A DNA stretch of 64,000 nt from Nitrosovibrio tenuis (GTDB lineage: Bacteria > Pseudomonadota > Gammaproteobacteria > Burkholderiales > Nitrosomonadaceae). This document shows positions 26,156-64,000 of the stretch, piece after piece. The notes beneath the pieces are model-generated. The model did not search any database, was not told where the DNA came from, and saw only the letters and a program-made list of their open reading frames with translations. The DNA is taken from positions 434,001 through 498,000 of the forward strand of contig NZ_FOBH01000001.1 of the NCBI RefSeq assembly GCF_900109785.1. Reading direction: 5' to 3'. Made by a program: the position numbers and the translations under genes. Numbering within the stretch: the stretch's first letter is position 1; each line of letters opens with the position of its first letter.

Positions 26156-27109
26156 TCAGCTGGCCGATAACAGCTCGTTCGCACCCTCATCACCATCCAG
26201 ATCAACCGCACCTTCTTTGAATACGCGGCTTGCGCGGATGTCCTCGGCCTCGATAGTCATCAGGTCAATACGCGAAAGATTTTTACGTGCCCCCTCGAAC
26301 AAGCGATTGGCCTGCCGCAGCCGCGCCCGATCAAGGGCGTTGCGAACGGAGCGGGCATTGGCGAAATGATCCATTTTCATTCTTAGCCGGATATATTCCC
26401 CAAAAGCCTTCTCGCCCTCGGGACTAAAGCGGTAATTCTGCGCAGCCAGCATGAGTTTGGCTATAGCAACCAATTCATCGGCGCTATAGTCGGGGAAGTC
26501 GATATGATGGGCGATACGCGAACGCATGCCCGGATTACTGCGGAAGAATTTTTCCATACGGTCTTTATAGCCCGCAAGAATTACAACCAGATCTTCCCGA
26601 TTGTTTTCCATCGTCTGCAATAAAATTTCTATCGATTCCGCGCCGTAATCGCGTTCGTTCTCGGGTTTGTAGAGGTAATAGGCCTCATCGATGAAAAGCA
26701 CCCCTCCCATCGCTTTCTTCAGCACCTCCTTGGTCTTGGGTGCAGTATGGCCGATATATTGACCCACCAGATCGTCGCGCGTAACGGAGACAAGATGCCC
26801 TTCACGCACGTAACCCAGGCGGTGCAGTATTTCGGACATGCGTAGCGCCACCGTAGTCTTCCCAGTGCCCGGGTTGCCGGTAAAACTCATATGCAGACTT
26901 GGCGCTCCGGCGGTGAGATCCAATTTCTTGCGCACGCGATCCACGAGTAATAACGCGGCTGTCTCACGGATGCGGGTTTTCACGGGTTTCAAGCCAATCA
27001 ATTCAAGATCAAGCTTATCCAGCACTTCCTTGATGTTGGAAGTGCGAAATTCGGCGTCCAGATCAACTGAACTATTATCAGAGGGTAGGGGTTCCGGATG
27101 ATTTTTCAC
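26156..27109 (-). CDS. cbbX: CbbX, red-type RuBisCO activase
   Basis: CbbX is the AAA+ ring that uses ATP to pull the C-terminal tail of red-type RuBisCO large subunits and release inhibitory sugar phosphates. The 317 residues show Walker [10 protein letters not shown], Walker [13 protein letters not shown], the pore-region YIGHTAPKT, sensor/arginine residues in [17 protein letters not shown], and the N-terminal [17 protein letters not shown]. The start is GTG with only a weak ribosome binding site. It lies 186 bases after cbbS on the same strand, past a stem-loop that may tune its expression. Confidence 0.95.
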
Positions 27110-27753: not shown

Positions 27754-29318
<1,565 letters not shown>

Positions 29319-53592: not shown

Positions 53593-54276
53593 GTGCATAT
53601 CCTTATTATTGAAGACGATCCCGCGATTGCCACAAACCTTTACGATTTTCTTGAGGCCCGTGGCCATAGCGTTGACGCGGCCGCGGATGGTATTACCGGC
53701 CTCCATCTCGCGGTGACGCAGCGATTTGACGGTATTCTGCTCGATCTGAGTCTGCCTGCCATGGACGGCATCACGTTGTGCCGCAAACTCCGCCAGGACG
53801 CCAATCTCGATACACCGGTACTCATGCTGACGGCGCGTGATACGCTGGAGGACAAGCTGAAAGGGTTCGATTGCGGCGCCGATGATTATCTGGTTAAGCC
53901 ATTTGCATTGAAAGAAGTCGAGGCCCGCCTGGTGGCGATGCACAAACGGCACGGAGGCAAAGTCACCAGCCGCATGCTGGAAACCGGCGATTTGACGTTC
54001 GATCCTAAAACCCTGTCGATACAATTTGCCGGGCAGGGTGTGAAGCTGCCGCCCAAATGCATCCGTCTGCTCGCTCTCATGATGGGCGAGCCCGGCCGCG
54101 TATTCAGCCGAAGAGAACTTGAATCGGAAGTCTGGGGAGATGCGCAGGGGACCAGTGACACATTGCGCAGTCATATGCACGAATTGCGCCGTGCGTTGAG
54201 CCGGGCCGGTGGCTATGATCCGATTGAGACAGTTCATGGGCTCGGTTACCGTCTGATCTCTCGTGCCCGGGCTTAA
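53593..54276 (+). CDS. OmpR-family response regulator
   Basis: A 227-residue regulator with GTG start (AGGA seven bases upstream). The receiver domain (1-120) has the acidic pair IIEDD, phosphoacceptor Asp in DGILLDLSLPAMDG, the Thr in MLTARD and the Lys in YLVKPF. The winged helix (about 130-225) ends IETVHGLGYRL, as in QseB/PmrA/TctD-like proteins. It overlaps the kinase gene by 14 bases. Targets are unknown; the carbonic anhydrase gene directly follows the kinase. Confidence 0.9.
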   Translation: MHILIIEDDPAIATNLYDFLEARGHSVDAAADGITGLHLAVTQRFDGILLDLSLPAMDGITLCRKLRQDANLDTPVLMLTARDTLEDKLKGFDCGADDYLVKPFALKEVEARLVAMHKRHGGKVTSRMLETGDLTFDPKTLSIQFAGQGVKLPPKCIRLLALMMGEPGRVFSRRELESEVWGDAQGTSDTLRSHMHELRRALSRAGGYDPIETVHGLGYRLISRARA

Positions 54277-55573
54277 GCGTGGCCTTCGCCTTCGTGTTGC
54301 GCTGGCGTTCGCAATCTTCTGCATAGTCGTAGTCGGCACTCTTGGTATCAGCCTGTATATCGCTTCAGACGACATCGAAGAGGCGCATATCGAGCAGATC
54401 ATGGAAACCGAGATGGACTATATGCTCCAGCGCTATCACGAGAGTCGCAATTTTGTACCGCAGGTGGGTTTTCACCTCGAAAAATACATCATCCGTGACC
54501 CTTCCGAAGAGTCCCGGCTGCCGTCCTATCTGCAGGGTCTCAACTACAGGCGTCACAGGGTATTTAAAGGTCCCGAGGAGATCAGGGTCGCGGTCAGACA
54601 CATTGATGGCGTCAAATTTATCGTTGCCTATGAAATCGGGCTCCACGATCAGCGCCAGCAGGAACTCAGACTTCTTATCGTTTTATCGCTCCTCTCGGTG
54701 GTCGGCGTCGCGCTTGTGGTGGGATACCTGCTTGCGGGTGTGCTAGTCAAACAGGTTACCGATCTTGCCGAGCGTGTAAGACATCTTGCACCGGGCGACG
54801 GGCAAGGCGCAACGATGATACAGCCCGGGCAGGACGAGGAAGTGGCGCAGCTTGCGCACGCGTTGGATGACTACCAGAATCGCATTACGCGCATGCTGCG
54901 GCGCGAACAGGAGTTTACTGCTAATGTCAGCCATGAACTTCGGACACCTATTACCACCATACTGACGAGTTGTGAGCTTCTGGTTACGGAGCGCAATCTT
55001 TCGGAGAGGGCGCGCGTTCGTGTCGGTATGATCGAAGCCGCCGCAACCCGCATGGGTGAGCAGCTACAGGCTTTGCTTTTTCTTGCCCGCGAGCAGTCAT
55101 TGGGTATCATGGAACCGGTTGCCCTCGCGGAATGTGTCTATGACGCAGTGGAACCCGTATGTTCGGAGATTTACCGCAAGCGTTTGAATTTCGAAGTTGC
55201 GATAGAGCCGAAAGCCGTCCTCACGCTGAACCGCCAGGCGCTGCATACGGCGCTTGTGAATCTGCTTCGCAATGCGGTGCAATATACCGAACGTGGTTTC
55301 ATCCGTGTAAATTTCAGCCAGAGCCGTCTCTCGATCTCGGATTCCGGCATAGGCATCGAACCGTTTTACATGCCCCTCCTGTACGAGCGCTTCTTCCGCG
55401 GTTCGACGCAAGGCGAGGGCCTGGGCATCGGACTCGCTATAGTCAAGCGTATATGCGATCACTACGGCTGGATCATTGATGTCGAGAGCACGCCAGGAAA
55501 AGGCGCCACATTCCATATTACATTTCCCGCTTCTCAGGCTGTAGCCTTAACTAATTCTTCACAATTTTTATGA
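54263..55573 (+). CDS. Sensor histidine kinase
   Basis: A 436-residue inner-membrane kinase with GTG start overlapping the regulator gene. Order: first helix (about 8-30), a periplasmic domain of about 100 residues, second helix (about 133-157), HAMP (about 158-215), HisKA with H in FTANVSHELRTPITTI, and an ATPase domain with N-box LLRNAVQYT, DSGIGIE and GLGIGLAIVKRIC. The sensor domain is short and not recognised, so the signal is unknown. Confidence 0.9.
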   Translation: MPGLKRGLRLRVALAFAIFCIVVVGTLGISLYIASDDIEEAHIEQIMETEMDYMLQRYHESRNFVPQVGFHLEKYIIRDPSEESRLPSYLQGLNYRRHRVFKGPEEIRVAVRHIDGVKFIVAYEIGLHDQRQQELRLLIVLSLLSVVGVALVVGYLLAGVLVKQVTDLAERVRHLAPGDGQGATMIQPGQDEEVAQLAHALDDYQNRITRMLRREQEFTANVSHELRTPITTILTSCELLVTERNLSERARVRVGMIEAAATRMGEQLQALLFLAREQSLGIMEPVALAECVYDAVEPVCSEIYRKRLNFEVAIEPKAVLTLNRQALHTALVNLLRNAVQYTERGFIRVNFSQSRLSISDSGIGIEPFYMPLLYERFFRGSTQGEGLGIGLAIVKRICDHYGWIIDVESTPGKGATFHITFPASQAVALTNSSQFL

Positions 55574-55621
55574 TAGTATTTCCTGGTTTCAATTTCCCTT
55601 GCAAATGACCGGAGCCGACAA

Positions 55622-56743
55622 ATGTATACTAATGTTACCCGCTTACCCATAGAGAAGCGCATAGACTGGCTATTCCATCTTGCCGACCGCCACGGTACGA
55701 CATTTCGCGGACCGGAAGCATGGCTGGCGCGCGAGCGGTATCTTGCGCAGCATCCAACCGCTATTGCCGTGTTGAAGTGTATGGACGGTCGCATCAATCT
55801 CCCCGTGATGACGAATACTCCGCCTGGCATTCTCATGCCGTTCCGCAACCTTGGCGGCGCATTCGATCTTGGTTGGCCGTATCTGGGCGAGGTGCTCTCT
55901 CATCATGTGCAGGGTTGGGTAAGGGCCGGGAGGCGGGTACTGTTTCTGGTTACCTATCACTTTTCCAAAGGTGATCCGCACCGTGGATGCGCCGGATTCA
56001 ATTACGACACGCAGGCGGCCTATGCCCATACCCAGGTCATCCGGCGCCAGATGCAGCAAATCTTCGGCGCGGAGCACGCAACCATATATCCTCTTATTTG
56101 CGGGATCGAGACTGACGAGGATACGATAATCGTTCATGGTTCCAATGGGGAGAAGCTCGATATGTCGCTGGTCACGCCGGATGAGAAAGCGACGCTGGAG
56201 CCCCGTCTTGCCGCCCTGCTGCCCGACATGCCGGCCCAGATGCGCGCCGATCTGTTGCCCCTGCTGCTGGGCAATCTCGATACCATCGCTCGCGTGCGCG
56301 AGCAGGCCGCACGTAATGAGCGGCTTCTGGACATTGAGCATCGCGAATGGATGATCTGCGTCGGCCGCGGCTTTGACTTCCTGCACACGCCTAACCTGGC
56401 TTTGATTATCGGTCCGTACAGCCCGAATCTCGACGTGCCCATTGGCAAGGCTGCCGGTATCATCCAAGGCAACATGCGCAGCGGTCGCATCCCCGATGAC
56501 GGGTTCCTGCTTCTGGCCTCGGTTCCTTACATGGAGATTGGTATGGACAAGGCGCGTGCCGAGCTGAAATCGCTTTTCCTGGCGCGCTTTGCCGCGGAGG
56601 TGGTGCGCCGCGAACATCCGGACCTTGCCGAGAAAATGTTTATCCGTACTGCCGTACTCGACTGGCAATCGCGGACACTGGAAACAATAACCGAAAATCT
56701 GCCGAATACGGATCGCAGTGAGATGACTGCCGCCTCATTCTGA
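55622..56743 (+). CDS. CsoSCA-like beta-type carbonic anhydrase
   Basis: A 373-residue protein resembling the catalytic part of the carboxysome shell carbonic anhydrase CsoSCA. The zinc site is complete: C53 with the D55-R57 dyad (LKCMDGRIN), H113 in YHFSKGD and C123 in HRGCAGF, in the same order and close to the same spacing as Cys173/Asp175/Arg177/His242/Cys253 of CsoSCA (recalled). PLICGIETDEDTIIVHG matches a further family block. It is shorter than CsoSCA (about 515) and lacks the N-terminal domain. No shell or CsoS2 genes are visible. It would interconvert CO2 and bicarbonate, presumably in the cytosol, as there is no signal peptide. It is convergent to the DAB operon. Confidence 0.75.
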   Translation: MYTNVTRLPIEKRIDWLFHLADRHGTTFRGPEAWLARERYLAQHPTAIAVLKCMDGRINLPVMTNTPPGILMPFRNLGGAFDLGWPYLGEVLSHHVQGWVRAGRRVLFLVTYHFSKGDPHRGCAGFNYDTQAAYAHTQVIRRQMQQIFGAEHATIYPLICGIETDEDTIIVHGSNGEKLDMSLVTPDEKATLEPRLAALLPDMPAQMRADLLPLLLGNLDTIARVREQAARNERLLDIEHREWMICVGRGFDFLHTPNLALIIGPYSPNLDVPIGKAAGIIQGNMRSGRIPDDGFLLLASVPYMEIGMDKARAELKSLFLARFAAEVVRREHPDLAEKMFIRTAVLDWQSRTLETITENLPNTDRSEMTAASF

Positions 56744-56782
56744 TACCCCCTCGCTGCCACTGCAATATGAATCGCCTCAAGG

Positions 56783-56817
56783 AGGAGTGATGGGAGAACG
56801 GATCTTCCGTCACTCCT
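56783..56817. terminator. Stem-loop between carbonic anhydrase gene and DAB operon ends
   Basis: AGGAGTGA (56783-56790) pairs with TCACTCCT (56810-56817); loop of 19 bases with partial further pairing. It lies between convergent genes but has no T-run, so the terminator role is tentative. Confidence 0.35.
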
Positions 56818-56964
56818 GGGGCGGACCGGGATTTAACTACCCGCGGGTCCCAATTTCCGGCGGGGCTCCCCAAGGGCGAATATATCACGGGCTATCCGGG
56901 CATATGTTTACGGCTCAGTTATAACCGCATAGGGTGGATCGGTGGGGCGCTCTTTGGCCCAAGT

Positions 56965-58464
56965 CTAATTGGTAAGTCGGCCTAACCATGACTCGGCGGC
57001 CAATCTATTGATATCCATTACCAAGTCGGGGAAGAAGCCAAAAAACAAAACCAGCAAAGCGGGTACACATAACAGTCCGAATTCGCGAGAGCGAAGATCC
57101 TGTACCTGATGTACGCTGACATGAACAATGGGCCCAAAAAATGCACGCCGGACAAACGACAACATATACGCTGCACCGAGGATAGCGCCCAACAACGCAG
57201 CGACACCCAGACCCGGGTGGGCGGTTAGCGCGCCAACGATCAACAAGAATTCTGCCGGAAAGCCGCTGGTTCCCGGTACGCCGATACTCGCCACGGCAAA
57301 CAAAAAGAAAAAACTGGTCAGGCGGGGCATTACTTTCGCCAAACCGCCCAGGTGAATGAGTTCGGTACTGCCGAGGCGGTGTTGAATAAAACCTGCGATC
57401 AAGATCAGGCAGCTTGCAATCAGGGTGAAATTGAGTAATTGAAAAATTGCGCCCTGAATCCCTTGCATATTGAGCGTAGCGATGCCCACTATCACCAAGC
57501 CGACATGACTGATACTCGCGTAGGCCAATAGACGACGCAAGTTGGTCTGCTGCAGGGCGATCATTGCCGCATAGGTAAACGTAATAGCCCCCAGGATACC
57601 CAGCACCCAGGCATATTCCACCGAAGCGTGTGGCGTGAGCGGCATGGCGAAACGCAACATGCCGTAGGCACCTAATTTCAGACCAACCAATAATGCCGTC
57701 AGTTGCGTCGGCGCTTCCACAGCGGTGGTAGGCAACCACGTATGAAACGGCACTAGCGGAGCCTTAACCGCAAATCCGGTGAGCAATAGAATGAAAATAA
57801 CGCGTTGCAAATCGTCCGACATGTACGTATCTAACAGGACGGGAAAGCTGAAAGATAAATTCAGTGGAATGCTGCCACCAGTTTGCATGGCGTGATTGAC
57901 ACCCAGCATGATGAACGCAAATAATAGCGGAACCCCGCTGAACACCATATACAGCATATATTTCATCGCCGCCCCCCTCCGCTCGGGACCACCGCCCCAC
58001 AAACCGATCAGAAAGAAAATGGGCGGCAATATCAATTCCCAGAACAGAAAGAACAACATCATATCCAGCGCCACCAATACACCCATGGTGGCGCCTTCCA
58101 TCACCAGTAGCAAGGCAAAGTGGAAACGAGTCAGGTGCTGCACGGAATTCCATGAAGCAATGAGGGCGACCAAGGTCAACAGTGCCGACATCGGCAAAAA
58201 CAATACGGAAATACCATCAACGCCGATTAGAAACTGAATATTCAGACTCGGGATCCAGGCGTGCTGCTCCACGAGCTGGAAGCGGTGACCCTGTGCGGCG
58301 TCGAACCACTGAACCACTATCAGGGTTGCGATCAGTTCAAGACCGGCAACGAATAGCGCTATCTTTTTTGCCATACTGATGTTGCGCGTAAAGCCTGCCG
58401 CAACGCCACCCAATAGAGGCAGCAGTATAATGAGGCTCAATATCGGAAAATTCGCTTCAGTCAT
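56965..58464 (-). CDS. NuoM-like proton-conducting membrane subunit
   Basis: An approximately 499-residue Mrp/complex-I-type antiporter-like subunit with 13-14 helices. I prefer ATG 58464 (GGGA upstream, eight-base overlap with the preceding gene) to 58491. It keeps the charged residues of proton channels: Glu in FLFWELILPPIFF, Lys in FAVKAPLVPFHTWLP, Lys in VGLKLGAYGMLRF and Glu in FPAEFLLIVGAL. As in NuoM it begins with LLPLLGG. No other nuo genes (B-G, I) flank it, and it is the last gene of the dab-like operon, so it probably works with DabA. Confidence 0.85.
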   Translation of the reverse strand: MTEANFPILSLIILLPLLGGVAAGFTRNISMAKKIALFVAGLELIATLIVVQWFDAAQGHRFQLVEQHAWIPSLNIQFLIGVDGISVLFLPMSALLTLVALIASWNSVQHLTRFHFALLLVMEGATMGVLVALDMMLFFLFWELILPPIFFLIGLWGGGPERRGAAMKYMLYMVFSGVPLLFAFIMLGVNHAMQTGGSIPLNLSFSFPVLLDTYMSDDLQRVIFILLLTGFAVKAPLVPFHTWLPTTAVEAPTQLTALLVGLKLGAYGMLRFAMPLTPHASVEYAWVLGILGAITFTYAAMIALQQTNLRRLLAYASISHVGLVIVGIATLNMQGIQGAIFQLLNFTLIASCLILIAGFIQHRLGSTELIHLGGLAKVMPRLTSFFFLFAVASIGVPGTSGFPAEFLLIVGALTAHPGLGVAALLGAILGAAYMLSFVRRAFFGPIVHVSVHQVQDLRSREFGLLCVPALLVLFFGFFPDLVMDINRLAAESWLGRLTN

Positions 58465-60040
58465 GCTGATCCCGCGTGGCTCCGCCATCAATCGATTTTA
58501 CCGGCACTCCATTGAGACGCTTGTCATGTTTATGGTAGTAGGCGCTCATCCCGGTTGGATCTCGCTCTATATAGTTCAGCCAAGGCGCCGTGTTAAAGCC
58601 TGTGCCGATAAGCAGCCAGCAAATCGTGATGGTGATGACGGGTTCCATTTTAATCAGGTAACGCTCGCTTCTTTGCGGTACGATGGCCCGTTTGGAAGTC
58701 GTCATGAATATCCTCTGAAAAGCTAACAGCAGGAAAGCGGCTGCCATGACGTTGCCGACCAGAATAGCGATGGCAATCAGCCAGCCATATTCTTCGATGG
58801 TTCCTTCGATGAGCAGGTGGGCCGCGTCGAACCCCGGCGTTCCGGGCATGGCAATCGTGCTCAGCGCGGCAATAAAGAAAAGCAGCGCTATGGTGACGTT
58901 GGTATCAAAAAGGCCCCCCAGACGGGGAGTAAATGCTGTGTGGGTGCGCTCGTAAATCAGACCGGCGCTGAACAGCATACCCGCTGACGCCAAGCCCCAC
59001 GCCAGCGTCAGAAATATTCCACCGTTCAATCCATGTTCGTTAAAACAGAAAATACCGATAACCAGTATCCCCACATGACTGATGACTGAAAACGCGAGCA
59101 GTCGCCGGATGTTGATCTGCATCAACGCAAGGAGGGCGCCATAAAAAATAGAGATCAGGCCTAGCGTGACTACAAATCCGGCCCAATGTTCTGCGACTTC
59201 AGTCAGTACCGGCAGGATGAAACGCGCGGTTGCATAAACGCCCAGCTTTAAACCCACCAGGAAAATGGTAACGCTGGCCACGGCGCTCTGTTCGGCGAGT
59301 ATCGGCAGCCAGCCGTGAAAAGGAAACAAAGGCATCCGAATGGCAAAGCCGCAAAACAGAAGAATAAAGATCAGTGTTTGGTTCTGTAATAATGTTTTAT
59401 TCTGCTTCAGGGTCAACCAGTCGAAGCTCAGGTCGTGACCCGAATTCATCAATCCAAAGCCAAGCAGCAGGAAGCCTGCCAAGGTCATCAGCAGACCCCA
59501 GCCCCAGTACTGCGCCAAACGGGTAATCATCCATCGTTTTCTTTGGCCGGTACCGCCATGGACTGTCAAAAGAATCACCGGAAGCAATTCCAGCAGGCTC
59601 CAGAACCAGAACTGGATGACGTTCAATGCGGTAAAAGCGCCCATCATGATGGCCTCATAGCCAAGCAGGCAGGCAATGAATTTCCAGTCAAACGTACGCC
59701 CGGTAATGGTTTTATAGATCAGAACCAGCAACGCTAAAATTGCGGTGAGTGGAATGAAGAGAACATTCAGACCATCAATACCGGCGCTGTAGTAAGTGAA
59801 ACCAAAAAAACGCTCCTGCTCAGCCAGTTGAATTCCGGCCGTTTCAGGGTCAAATACGGATAACAGGTAAAAGCTTAAAAATAAATTGAGCAACGTTCCT
59901 GCAAAGCCGAAGCCCATGGCGATGCCTGTGGACGAACGCGTTAACAGGATGGCGGTCATGGCCGCCAAGGGAACAAGAACCAACGTCGTCAGTAGGGGAA
60001 ACGCTATCGATTCCGACCAAAACATGACGTTGGTGACCAT
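58457..60040 (-). CDS. Divergent NuoM/NuoL-like membrane subunit
   Basis: About 527 residues and about 14 helices, of the same proton-pumping superfamily. The helix 5 Glu is present (SLLELLPVILL), but the Lys of the NuoM KMPxxPxHGWLP motif is Arg (AIRMPLFPFHGWLP), and the C-terminal Glu region is altered (GFDAAHLLIEG). The Lys in VGLKLGVYATARF is retained. The start is uncertain: ATG 60040, or TTG 60055 overlapping the previous gene. It sits between the NuoL-like and NuoM-like genes of the operon. Confidence 0.8.
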   Translation of the reverse strand: MVTNVMFWSESIAFPLLTTLVLVPLAAMTAILLTRSSTGIAMGFGFAGTLLNLFLSFYLLSVFDPETAGIQLAEQERFFGFTYYSAGIDGLNVLFIPLTAILALLVLIYKTITGRTFDWKFIACLLGYEAIMMGAFTALNVIQFWFWSLLELLPVILLTVHGGTGQRKRWMITRLAQYWGWGLLMTLAGFLLLGFGLMNSGHDLSFDWLTLKQNKTLLQNQTLIFILLFCGFAIRMPLFPFHGWLPILAEQSAVASVTIFLVGLKLGVYATARFILPVLTEVAEHWAGFVVTLGLISIFYGALLALMQINIRRLLAFSVISHVGILVIGIFCFNEHGLNGGIFLTLAWGLASAGMLFSAGLIYERTHTAFTPRLGGLFDTNVTIALLFFIAALSTIAMPGTPGFDAAHLLIEGTIEEYGWLIAIAILVGNVMAAAFLLLAFQRIFMTTSKRAIVPQRSERYLIKMEPVITITICWLLIGTGFNTAPWLNYIERDPTGMSAYYHKHDKRLNGVPVKSIDGGATRDQHD

Positions 60041-60044
60041 GGTC

Positions 60045-61679
60045 TTAAAGCGCAACCAATAATATTATTAGAACGAACAGGGCGAGATAACCGGGGTTGA
60101 GCAGCAACTGTTCGATTTTGTTGGCGGCAAGCCCAAGCCGCTGACCATACTTGATCATGTCTTCGCCAATGCCTCGTATGACGAGACGATCCTCGAACCA
60201 ATATAATCCCGCGGTGATCCGCTCGGTAAGATTGCCGGCAAACCCACTGCCTCTGGCAAAGATCTCGTCATGACTATCCTGTTGCGTAACAGTTTTACGC
60301 TTCTGCGGTTGCGCCACGCTCCCGAGAACACCTAGTGATGAGTATAGGGACTGCCGCATGGCGGTTTTTCGTTTTTCCAGTTGCGCCAGCGTAGATATCG
60401 AGCGTAGCGAAGGGAGCGGAATTCCCATGGCGCGATCAACGATATGGTCATCAAAATACGCCAGGTCATGAGCCAGTTTCAGTACCGGCTTTACCAAAGC
60501 CCAATCGGTAATCTGGTCAATCCAGAAACGGTGCAAGGAGGTGGCGTACACCCAGCGCAAACCTGAAATTTCCCGGCTGACCGGCTGGATTGGATTGCCC
60601 AGAATCTGATGCATAAGCGATGGCGCAGCCAATACCTGATAACCGCGAACGATGGCATGGGCGCATAAATGCCAGCTCGCCAATTGCCAGAATCCCAATC
60701 CGCATTCCAGAAACATGAGGCCCAATTGTCCGGTTGTGGCAAAAAATAACGAACTCTTGACATCGGTCTGGGTCAGCCCGACAGCAAAGCCATACACAGC
60801 CGTCAGCAGTCCCACTACCGCGACCAGAGCCATGACCAGCGGTGCGCGCTCAAGAATGGGCTGTATAAGAATCATGAGGTAAACGCCGGAATGCACCATT
60901 ATTGCGCCGTAAAACCCCGCGCTGGATGGCGTCGGACCTTCAGCTGCGCGCGCCAGCCATGGTGCAAACGGCAGCTGGGCTGATTTTGCGAAAGCAGCAA
61001 TGGCAAAGCAGAGGGCAATTGCGCTGGCTTGCCCGGTGGATAGTTGTGTTGACAAAGCGTTAAGCTGCGTCCAGTCGAGTGTTTTGGTCCATGCATAGCT
61101 CAGCGCGATGCCCAAAATGAAACCGATATCCCCCGCCCGTACCGTGACGAACACACGCGTCGCGTTATAGGCGGCAACCGGACGGTCGTAAGCGTAGGCT
61201 ATTAATAGATAAGAGCAAAGGCCGGCAATCTCCCACCCTATGAAGGTTCCCACCGCATTATCCGATAACACCAGTAACAGCATTGCCGACGCATACAGGC
61301 TCAACAAGAAAAAGAAGCGGTGAAAACCCGCCTCCCTATGCAGGTAATTAATGGAGAATCGGATAATGATAAACAACAGGATGGCAAATAACGCTGCCAA
61401 TACCACGCTGATGCCGGTAGTAATAAAATTGACCTGGATGGTCAACATGCCGCTACTCAGCCATTGCCCGGCACTAAATGAGCCGGCGTTTTGACCGATC
61501 AAATCGCCACCGAGCAGAATCAACGCCAATAGACAGGACAGTCCAATCGCCCAGCTTGCGATAGCCGCTGTCGTGGTTTCGGCGGGCTCCCCGTTGAGCA
61601 TTCCGGATAAATGACCGATTCCTATAACGGCCGCAGCGATCGCGGGAAGCAGGGGAATGAAAGCGGCCAGGATATCCAT
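60045..61679 (-). CDS. dabB: DabB-like (NuoL-type) membrane subunit
   Basis: A 544-residue NuoL-like protein. WEIAGLCSYLLIAYAYDRPVAAYNATRVFVTVRAGDIGF, FAKSAQLPFAPWLARAAEGPTPSSAGFYGAIMVHSGVYL and the retained Glu and Lys residues are those of the NuoL/DabB proton channel family. It starts five bases after the DabA stop, the usual dab pairing. DabB is thought to couple the proton gradient to CO2 hydration by DabA. The C-terminal region has a long charged segment (about 420-480) before the last helix. Confidence 0.82.
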   Translation of the reverse strand: MDILAAFIPLLPAIAAAVIGIGHLSGMLNGEPAETTTAAIASWAIGLSCLLALILLGGDLIGQNAGSFSAGQWLSSGMLTIQVNFITTGISVVLAALFAILLFIIIRFSINYLHREAGFHRFFFLLSLYASAMLLLVLSDNAVGTFIGWEIAGLCSYLLIAYAYDRPVAAYNATRVFVTVRAGDIGFILGIALSYAWTKTLDWTQLNALSTQLSTGQASAIALCFAIAAFAKSAQLPFAPWLARAAEGPTPSSAGFYGAIMVHSGVYLMILIQPILERAPLVMALVAVVGLLTAVYGFAVGLTQTDVKSSLFFATTGQLGLMFLECGLGFWQLASWHLCAHAIVRGYQVLAAPSLMHQILGNPIQPVSREISGLRWVYATSLHRFWIDQITDWALVKPVLKLAHDLAYFDDHIVDRAMGIPLPSLRSISTLAQLEKRKTAMRQSLYSSLGVLGSVAQPQKRKTVTQQDSHDEIFARGSGFAGNLTERITAGLYWFEDRLVIRGIGEDMIKYGQRLGLAANKIEQLLLNPGYLALFVLIILLVAL

Positions 61680-61684
61680 AATTC

Positions 61685-63998
61685 TCAGGTTCCTTCCGGT
61701 CTGGATTGCCTTATCAGGGCGGGCGGTAATGGCAGGGTTTGACTTCGGTAATAGTCCGGGGAATTTTTGTGCGACGGTAGATCTCTTGCCTCGGCTCGCC
61801 AGGGGACGAACCCGATCCCGCGCTCAAAAATAAATATTTCACCGGTATCGGGGTCCTTGGCACTGAGCAATATCCATCCGCCGGATATTAATTCACGTAG
61901 ACTTTCCTGACGGCCATAGATTTGTTCCAGGATTGATGTCCTCGCTTCCACCAGAATCTGCAAGCGCACCGCCTCATGAATTTCGATCATTTGCCGCGGC
62001 AGGCCGGTGCGTAGATCGCTGGCCGCACCTTCCATCACGGCAAACATTCCTACGACGTTATGCGGTACTTTTGTACCACAACCAAAACGTTCGTTGTTAA
62101 CGGTAGAGAAGTAATACTCCAGGTTAATTCCGGCGCCGACGGGTCCGACAGCCAGGAGGATTCCTTCCACCACTTTTCCCTCCGGGTCTTGCGTGGGATC
62201 GTAGGAAATCAGAAAAACGCGGCGATCGAAGAACGCACCCTGGGTTACCGATCTGCGTCCGACCACTGCCGCGGCATTGGTAGCGTGCCCCAGTTCAGGT
62301 CTGGCCTGGGAAAAGTCGGTAGCGCGCTCTTCAATATGCTTCAAAGCTTGCTCCGGGGTGGGGTTACGCGGTGCCGATGCCAGCCGGCGGCAGCGCTCGT
62401 GTGCTGACATTTGCTGCGCGTGGCGCAATTCACCCGTTAATTTGGTGAGCGCAGCTTTTCGTTCTCCTGGAACATCCCCTATGTCATACCAGGTGATTTC
62501 CTCGTTGCAGGTATTATGCTCAGCGCCAATAAACCAGGTATCAGATGGGATATTGATGCCACGTTCGGCCACCAGTTTGCGTATTTCCGGCCGATTGGCC
62601 ATCGCTGCGAACAGTCTTGCATTCGGGCCGCCATGGCGGCCGCTACAAGCCCCGCAATCATACGCCGCCAGATGAGGGTTATTCTGGCTAATGGAGCCGT
62701 GCCCCATCAATACCACTATTTCCGAGAAGCCGTAGGTCAGCCCGGTATTGCGCAGGAAACCGGCAACGCGATCGGCCTGTTCCTTATCCGTGAAGCCCAG
62801 CTTGGGGTGATCCGGCGTGGCAATGGTTGCGGTATCCGTTGACGTAAACATCAGCTGGGTGTCCACTGCGGGGGATACTCCCTGGCGAATGCTCGCCAGA
62901 ACGGTTTGCTGGCGTTTAGGCAGCAACGTTTTTGCCAATAATCCAGCCAGGGTAACCGGTGCAATCGCATCAATAAGGGGTTGTGAAAGCAACAGGTTCC
63001 TGCGTAAGCTCTGGTACATCAGGTTAGCGGCGCGCTGTGCCAATCTGCGTCCGTCATTATGCCGCAAGAACGTTTCGTCAGTTTTGGGCCTGGGTATTTC
63101 CCGCACCTCATGGGCGGGTGTTACCACTATGGGACACAATGGCGTAACCCTGGTGTCATCCAGACCTTTATAGTTCATCGGTACGCCAAAAAAGCCCGCA
63201 GCCCCGAGCGTTTCGATTGTGGAATTCAGTTCTTCCAGATGCCTGCGAAAGCCTTCCTCCCGATCATCTATACAGAAAACTACTTGTGAGTCGGGGCGTC
63301 TATCGCGCTGAGCCCATGTTCCATGATTATGGTTAGCGCGTATTGCCTGAAAAAAAGCTTCGCGGTAATGCCGCTCGTAAGCATACAGCCAGACTTTACC
63401 GCGTTCTGCCGGCGAAAATTGATCCAGCAGCGCCAGCATCTGGAGCAAATCGCTTTTTTCAAGTTCCTGTACGTGCGAGGCGTTCAGACCCAGGTGCTGG
63501 CATAAACGAAACAGCCGCCAACCACTACTATAGATGGTATGTTCCGTGTCTTGGGATTCAGCCAGCGGGCTGAATTGCCAAGTCTGAATCAGATCAGCAA
63601 CACGCTGCCAGTCCGCACGCTCATGCCGCTCCGAACCTGCAAGCAGGATCAGAGACGCTACCCGTTCGGTAAGGTATTCCGGCAACCTCCTCTTGTACAA
63701 CTGGCTGCGCACCAGGAATTCCGACAGGTTTTTACGGAAATAGGTCTGCAATCCGCTCAACCTGGCTTCGACGCGCCAATTTTCATGGCAAATACGGTTT
63801 AGCCAGAATCGGTCCAACGTTAACCGTATGGCCAGATAATCGGCGAGGTTAGGTCTCGCATCCTCGACCGCATAATAATTTGGATGATGCTGACGCCAGT
63901 TGATCAGGCCTGACCAGCCGGGTAATTCGAGCGCCAAACGGCGGAGATATCCTTCCCATTTTGCTTGCGGTATTTCCAGTCGCGTCAATTGTAGAATG
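61685..63998 (-). CDS. dabA: DabA-like (DUF2309) bicarbonate-forming subunit, 5' end outside window
   Basis: The frame is open at the window edge; the TTG at 63988 is probably not the true start because homologues have about 100 or more further N-terminal residues. DabA converts CO2 to bicarbonate unidirectionally with a beta-carbonic-anhydrase-like zinc site. Numbered from that TTG, the site is C239 and D241 (VFCIDDRE), H430 (LMGHGS) and C445 (YDCGACSG); the His-Cys distance of 15 equals that of characterised DabA (recalled C351, D353, H524, C539). So the active site looks intact. It is first in an operon with three membrane subunits. Confidence 0.9.
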   Translation of the reverse strand, partial: ILQLTRLEIPQAKWEGYLRRLALELPGWSGLINWRQHHPNYYAVEDARPNLADYLAIRLTLDRFWLNRICHENWRVEARLSGLQTYFRKNLSEFLVRSQLYKRRLPEYLTERVASLILLAGSERHERADWQRVADLIQTWQFSPLAESQDTEHTIYSSGWRLFRLCQHLGLNASHVQELEKSDLLQMLALLDQFSPAERGKVWLYAYERHYREAFFQAIRANHNHGTWAQRDRRPDSQVVFCIDDREEGFRRHLEELNSTIETLGAAGFFGVPMNYKGLDDTRVTPLCPIVVTPAHEVREIPRPKTDETFLRHNDGRRLAQRAANLMYQSLRRNLLLSQPLIDAIAPVTLAGLLAKTLLPKRQQTVLASIRQGVSPAVDTQLMFTSTDTATIATPDHPKLGFTDKEQADRVAGFLRNTGLTYGFSEIVVLMGHGSISQNNPHLAAYDCGACSGRHGGPNARLFAAMANRPEIRKLVAERGINIPSDTWFIGAEHNTCNEEITWYDIGDVPGERKAALTKLTGELRHAQQMSAHERCRRLASAPRNPTPEQALKHIEERATDFSQARPELGHATNAAAVVGRRSVTQGAFFDRRVFLISYDPTQDPEGKVVEGILLAVGPVGAGINLEYYFSTVNNERFGCGTKVPHNVVGMFAVMEGAASDLRTGLPRQMIEIHEAVRLQILVEARTSILEQIYGRQESLRELISGGWILLSAKDPDTGEIFIFERGIGFVPWRAEARDLPSHKNSPDYYRSQTLPLPPALIRQSRPEGT

Positions 63999-64000
63999 AT

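Follow-up and report, generated by a model that had tools for sequence, protein, structure and literature searches.

A csoSCA2 gene, encoding a predicted carbonic anhydrase of CsoSCA type, recurrently faces the operon of a DAB inorganic-carbon pump in several bacterial lineages. The enzyme type itself was already known, and the recurrent pairing is what is new here. The window, by which we mean the whole 64,000-nucleotide stretch of Nitrosovibrio tenuis DNA that was analysed, carries one such pair and belongs to a 3.1 Mb genome close to Nitrosospira. Homologues of this kind, located outside carboxysome loci in both autotrophs and heterotrophs, are widespread (excerpts of PMC9164163, 2022), and the pairing with DAB offers a clue to the job of a protein that the same excerpts call yet to be studied. 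With a defined carbon pump as its recurrent, syntenic neighbour, in hosts that have RuBisCO throughout and of which 11 of 12 had no CsoS2 match, a role of CsoSCA2 becomes testable. In addition, the linked loci are natural cases of a 'pump plus free carbonic anhydrase', a combination so far examined in engineered strains (PMC9894237, as excerpted). Searches of the PMC full-text literature, which leaves subscription papers and preprints outside its coverage, turned up no report of csoSCA2 beside DAB.

The csoSCA2 gene faces a DAB operon

The features of the window and of the sequence just beyond its end are as follows.

26156-27109, - strand: CbbX (TIGR02880, 525 bits, cut-off 459)
27754-29223, - strand: RuBisCO large subunit, sole PF00016 match in the whole genome
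53593-54276, + strand: OmpR-type response regulator (Response_reg and Trans_reg_C), syntenic in Nitrosospira loci L002 and L003
54263-55573, + strand: sensor histidine kinase (HisKA and HATPase_c), ending 48 bp before csoSCA2
55622-56743, + strand: csoSCA2, predicted CsoSCA-type beta-carbonic anhydrase of 373 aa (a short pair of N-terminal helices within residues 10-43; catalytic domain with C53, D55, R57, H113 and C123; C-terminal domain)
56784-56816, no strand: hairpin between the convergent genes (14-pair stem, 5-nt loop)
56965-58491, - strand: NuoM1-like antiporter subunit (PF00361), last DAB operon gene, directed towards csoSCA2
58457-60055, - strand: NuoM2-like antiporter subunit (PF00361)
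60045-61679, - strand: NuoL-like subunit (PF00361 and PF00662), probably of DabB type
61685-64000, - strand: DabA (PF10070, E 1.4e-211), crossing the window end
64965-66503, - strand: NuoM3, beyond the window end, fifth gene of the DAB operon
68280-69260, + strand: Sbt_1 bicarbonate transporter, beyond the window end

The csoSCA2 gene and the DAB operon are convergent, with a stop-to-stop gap of 221 bp in the window, and therefore do not form one operon. The preliminary description had placed a DAB operon opposite the enzyme gene, and Pfam domains bore this out, giving NuoM-NuoM-NuoL-DabA on the - strand. Full-length DabA has 1095 aa and reaches window-equivalent position 64972; it is present in one copy in the whole genome, and its C567, D569, H758 and C773 were kept in every one of the 42 DabA rows aligned. 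DabA (PF10070) with its Zn/Asp residues and a NuoL-type subunit are both present, as in a DAB, and homology suggests that the complex would carry out energy-coupled CO2 hydration. The response regulator-histidine kinase pair stops 48 bp short of csoSCA2 and has the same orientation, so it may be cotranscribed with csoSCA2; the pair may also control it.

The hairpin is a possible, weak candidate for a two-way terminator. The intergenic stretch between csoSCA2 and NuoM1 as a whole was no more stable than its shuffles (z -0.47), and no terminator-like site was predicted at the hairpin; promoter-like sites numbered 6 against 3.4 expected and terminator-like sites 1 against 3.6 expected, counts that gave no guidance.

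CsoSCA2 is a CsoSCA homologue with a short N-terminus

By its sequence, the window protein is a CsoSCA homologue that has the complete set of active-site residues and no long N-terminal domain. It matched the Pfam model CsoSCA_cat (E 5.6e-8, 33 bits, cut-off 21.5) and NCBIfam TIGR02701 (E 7.4e-12), the latter with 44.8 bits where the equivalog cut-off is 241; this makes it a relative of CsoSCA and not a canonical CsoSCA. A sequence search of the PDB returned five matches with E of at most 0.0002, all of them CsoSCA, and a sixth with E 1.9. The CsoSCA-type site described earlier (C53, D55-R57, H113, C123) was complete: C53, D55, R57, H113 and C123 are invariant across alignment A1, which comprises the window protein and 41 of the best 80 relatives (42 rows). 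G161, E163-D165 and H172-G173 of the GIETDEDTIIVHG block are likewise invariant in these 42 rows. In a profile-profile alignment with 20 carboxysomal-type CsoSCA, which covered residues 50-360, C53/D55/R57, H113 and C123 fell on the carboxysomal active-site columns. This alignment began only at residue 50, in agreement with the earlier remark that the N-terminal domain of CsoSCA is missing; residues 1-49, fewer than 50, occupy its place.

The AlphaFold model (pLDDT 82) has N-terminal helices at residues 10-29 and 31-43, and its best five matches in the PDB were all CsoSCA structures (E 1.6e-15 to 1.8e-13). Mean column identity was 76% for CsoSCA2 (A1, more than one phylum) versus 55% for the 20 carboxysomal CsoSCA (one class), a difference that is only a hint because the A1 sequences were selected among the nearest relatives. 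The residues present suggest that CsoSCA2 binds zinc and has carbonic anhydrase activity; it is probably cytosolic.

Carboxysome genes, RuBisCO and other carbonic anhydrases of the genome

The search of the whole genome for carboxysome genes covered BMC, CsoS2 and CsoSCA_cat, and it placed csoSCA2 outside any carboxysome locus. There were no BMC shell proteins (the E. coli and Synechococcus controls were positive) and no CsoS2, a model for which no control was positive here and which was positive in 2 of 50 other genomes. The single CsoSCA_cat match was csoSCA2 itself, with no second CsoSCA found, and the PF08936 profile gave no match in the genome and likewise none in the controls, so that its result carries no weight. 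The preliminary description had seen no carboxysome genes and had named csoS1 or csoS2 genes elsewhere in the genome as evidence that would count against it; with zero BMC and zero CsoS2 matches, its observation was upheld genome-wide.

The RuBisCO had been assigned to form IC. The neighbouring CbbX, the activase of red-type RuBisCO, scores above its equivalog cut-off and is in line with this assignment. A beta-carbonic anhydrase of family PF00484 is present in a single copy (C19; L084:379-2250) and has an N-terminus that resembles a Tat signal; since it is the sole PF00484 enzyme, csoSCA2 may be the cytosolic beta-carbonic anhydrase of the genome. The PF00484 gene adjoins a urea transporter gene (PF03253).

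The pairing recurs in several lineages

We found 282 csoSCA2 relatives in a set with one genome per species and kept the best 80; genes around them were called by a codon-scored gene caller, whose start codons are guesses. The nearest loci among the best 80 of the 282 were from Nitrosospira sp. 56-18 (89% identity) and NpAV (84%). Window and two Nitrosospira loci have a common order: DHQ synthase, HD phosphohydrolase, URO-D, response regulator, histidine kinase, csoSCA2 and the opposing DAB operon. Convergence of csoSCA2 with DAB was observed in 12 of the best 80 of the 282 relatives (the same 12 among the 75 loci whose downstream flank is 1.5 kb or longer), and in these linked loci the DAB genes, read from csoSCA2, follow the order NuoM1-NuoM2-NuoL-DabA-NuoM3. 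The linked loci belong to Nitrosospira (L002, L003), Rhodocyclaceae (L004, L005, L038), gammaproteobacterial bins (L029 and L078, the contig of the latter stopping inside DabA) and Thiodiazotropha (L063, L071, L072, L080, L081). Their stop-to-stop gaps range from 3 to 873 bp, with one predicted ORF between csoSCA2 and DAB in L005 and L029, and a SulP-type gene lies past NuoM3 in all four Thiodiazotropha loci inspected for it (L063, L071, L080, and L121 for L081). Within the flank examined, DAB was not seen in 63 of the 75 loci with enough flank, and the five-gene DAB also occurs in genomes with no csoSCA2 match (L126-L128, L131-L133).

Two further features of the csoSCA2 loci were observed. 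In eight loci csoSCA2 is preceded, in the same orientation, by an iron-containing alcohol dehydrogenase-like gene, its family checked for L035; this gene is at position -1 in L004, L035, L038, L042 and L065, -2 in L077, -3 in L029 and -4 in L052. In Dechloromonas sp. SSD3, a stretch about 4 kb downstream of the complete csoSCA2 (L037:14860-14970) matches a C-terminal portion of the protein. As the match covers only 37 residues, a second csoSCA2 copy was dropped as an explanation; it is possibly a csoSCA2 fragment.

Hosts of csoSCA2

We tested the genomes of 50 of the 80 hosts, namely all 12 linked ones and 38 unlinked ones chosen for spread; absences are soft because many hosts are draft bins. 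RuBisCO over the cut-off was found in 40 of the 50 (12/12 linked and 28/38 unlinked, some partial or low-scoring). No match over the cut-off came from 10 of the 38 unlinked hosts, a Sumerlaeota bin and Desulfobulbus being examples, which argues against a role of CsoSCA2 in the Calvin cycle alone. DabA was present in 27 of the 50 (12/12 linked by construction, 15/38 unlinked), with no match in the other 23, and CsoS2 in two, one linked (L038, elsewhere in the genome; 1/12) and one unlinked (L065; 1/38).

To type the RuBisCOs of linked hosts, we used their identity to the red form of the window, to the L170 RuBisCO beside CsoS2 and to the L005 RuBisCO. Nitrosospira have the red form, accompanied by a green form I in NpAV, and the linked hosts outside Nitrosospira have L005-like and/or green form I enzymes. 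The L005 RuBisCO passes NCBIfam NF010002, the form II model, and at this locus form II RuBisCO, a CbbR-like LysR regulator (54% identical to that of the window), csoSCA2 and DAB lie inside about 14 kb. The arrangement is not tied to form IC RuBisCO, since form II and green form I enzymes occur in linked hosts as well. In Nitrosospira sp. NpAV (L151), the second, green-type form I RuBisCO lies about 30 kb from csoSCA2, and a CsoS2 match was absent.

Frequency and inheritance of the linkage

An even draw of 369 genomes from the class, separate from the best-80 set, contained csoSCA2 in 6 genomes (A1 profile) and DabA in 83. Both occurred in 2 of the 369, our own genome and G350, and were adjacent in both; DabA was absent from the other 4 of the 6 csoSCA2 genomes. 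As G350 is judged to be the genome of L081, the draw brings no further linked lineage. PF20686 matched in 69 of the 369 genomes, for the most part CsoSCA proteins of full length, some 500 aa, and caught csoSCA2 in only 2 of the 6 genomes positive with the A1 profile.

The phylogeny against CsoSCA that had been proposed as a check set the enzyme apart: all CsoSCA2 rows split from the 12 carboxysomal rows by a very long branch with 100% support. Mapping the linkage onto the CsoSCA2 tree (97 rows) needed 6 changes, 4 of them forced by starred branches, and onto the DabA tree (42 rows) 3 changes, all forced. A single clade of linked rows was rejected in both gene trees, with p-AU 0.0008 for CsoSCA2 (reduced 65-row set, 4 changes needed) and 2e-55 for DabA; the p-AU test presumes a group named beforehand, and the linked group was named by locus. 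As the linked rows are scattered in the trees, the arrangement is either old and repeatedly lost, or was assembled more than once. These trees do not tell the two apart, and the identical geometry favours an old linkage with losses over repeated assembly.

A complex-I-like operon as second neighbour

Four further loci have a six-gene complex-I-like operon next to csoSCA2 or in its vicinity.

L042:11106-18339: six-gene complex-I-like operon
L075:11066-18217: six-gene complex-I-like operon
L141:9370-16679: six-gene complex-I-like operon
L077:16566-21070: six-gene complex-I-like operon

It stands where DAB would be in L042 (followed there by SulP) and L075, shares the strand of csoSCA2 and leads into it in L141 (host G082), and in L077 is represented by its end about 5.5 kb downstream of csoSCA2. 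Its NuoCD/HyfG-like subunit has no NiFe-site cysteine pairs in 4/4 loci (families for three); complexes of this kind bear the name Ehr. In the genome of L077, the six-gene operon runs on along the contig (PF00361 subunit in L201), and a DAB operon then follows about 18 kb from csoSCA2. L201 holds a response regulator-histidine kinase pair, SulP, a hexapeptide gamma-carbonic anhydrase-like protein and a five-gene DAB in about 16 kb; the regulator is 52% and the kinase only 30% identical to those of the window. The gene content of this genome is a hint of an ancestral island for carbon uptake that was larger.

Possible roles of CsoSCA2

From the recurrent linkage, which is a direct observation, we infer joint use of CsoSCA2 with DAB. 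On balance it is probable, if narrowly so, that CsoSCA2 acts as a free carbonic anhydrase of the cytosol and that, together with the DAB encoded beside it, it forms a module supplying inorganic carbon without carboxysomes. DAB would hydrate CO2 in one direction, driven by the membrane potential, and the bicarbonate would be trapped; CsoSCA2 would turn part of it back to CO2 for cytosolic RuBisCO, and the remainder would supply bicarbonate-using carboxylases. Leakage would be tolerated because the gain would be a balance of CO2 and bicarbonate, not a high CO2 pool. The preliminary description saw a conflict in a free carbonic anhydrase that dissipates the bicarbonate pool beside DabA. This is not fatal, because DAB and a free carbonic anhydrase jointly improve growth of RuBisCO-dependent E. 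coli, and DAB alongside native carbonic anhydrases was not deleterious in C. necator (excerpts of PMC9894237). Its suggestion of a non-carboxysomal carbon-concentrating arrangement remains plausible given recurrence in 12 of 80 loci that form no single clade, although CsoSCA outside carboxysomes was already known (PMC9164163, in part). A farther-reaching version, which we regard as quite unlikely, would make CsoSCA2 a dedicated partner of complex-I-like carbon machines, namely the DAB of five genes and, possibly, the six-subunit complex that lacks the NiFe cysteines, in a natural carboxysome-free CCM that matches a proposed pre-carboxysome intermediate.

CsoSCA2 could also be an ordinary free carbonic anhydrase, serving bicarbonate supply or pH in an inherited island with no working link to DAB. 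We consider this unlikely while well within reach: 23 of 50 hosts have no DabA, 10 of 50 have no RuBisCO over the cut-off, the genes are convergent and most relatives are unlinked, but the linkage was kept with the same geometry in lineages that form no single clade, and with a Tat-like sole PF00484 enzyme csoSCA2 may be the cytosolic beta-carbonic anhydrase (the search for carbonic anhydrases covered PF00484 and CsoSCA_cat). Improbable, in our judgement, is that CsoSCA2 docks on a complex-I-like module of the membrane, either DAB or the six-subunit complex without NiFe cysteines, and acts at the membrane face; the six-gene operon next to csoSCA2 in three loci (L042, L075, L141) and some 5.5 kb off in a fourth (L077) would fit it, as would the strong conservation of CsoSCA2 (76% vs 55%, a hint only, A1 being the closest relatives). 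That the same scaffold performs other chemistry in vivo would accord with variant proteins being called yet to be studied in excerpts of PMC9164163; the complete residue set aligned with CsoSCA makes it very improbable. Clear homology to CsoSCA might suggest a remnant of a lost carboxysome locus, an origin that is scarcely credible, since the fully supported, very long branch to the 12 carboxysomal rows speaks against a relic, the ORF is intact with a conserved active site, and PMC9164163, in the text excerpted, also denies a carboxysome-locus origin of the variant.

Comparison with known systems

Judged by HMM homology, active site, N-terminus, locus and tree, the window protein fits CsoSCA2 variant 2. 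The excerpts of PMC9164163 describe this truncated second variant as having an N-terminus of about 40 residues in two helices and a complete active site, as yet to be studied and as not derived from carboxysome loci; examples include Nitrosomonas oligotropha and Accumulibacter, and DIC transporter genes, whether close to such loci or elsewhere, are described for most organisms whose loci are atypical. The two-helix N-terminus of about 40 residues, active-site residues, C-terminal domain and non-carboxysome locus are alike and no protein difference was seen, while DAB linkage is not stated in those excerpts. Carboxysomal CsoSCA (PDB 2FGY, 9G4T, 8THM) shares the catalytic and C-terminal domains and the active-site residues. 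The window protein differs in having no N-terminal domain (RuBisCO-binding peptide and hook) and in missing the equivalog cut-off, and its genome has no csoS2 or shell genes; the hook motif is the mark that separates CsoSCA from homologues outside cso operons (PMC12646314, as excerpted).

DAB2 and DAB1 of H. neapolitanus resemble the window DAB in a DabA with the conserved C-D-H-C set and a NuoL-like partner, whereas the window DabA has about 1100 aa and its operon three extra NuoM-like subunits. In excerpts of PMC13144422, DAB2 is a one-way CO2 hydratase coupled to the membrane potential, and DAB1 has one additional small membrane protein. Transporters together with a cytosolic carbonic anhydrase in non-carboxysomal autotrophs have been called curious (PMC10880623, in part). 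The engineered strains with DAB and a free carbonic anhydrase (PMC9894237, excerpted text) combine the same two activities, predicted here, and are likewise carboxysome-free; they use E. coli Can, whereas the window pairing is natural and with CsoSCA2.
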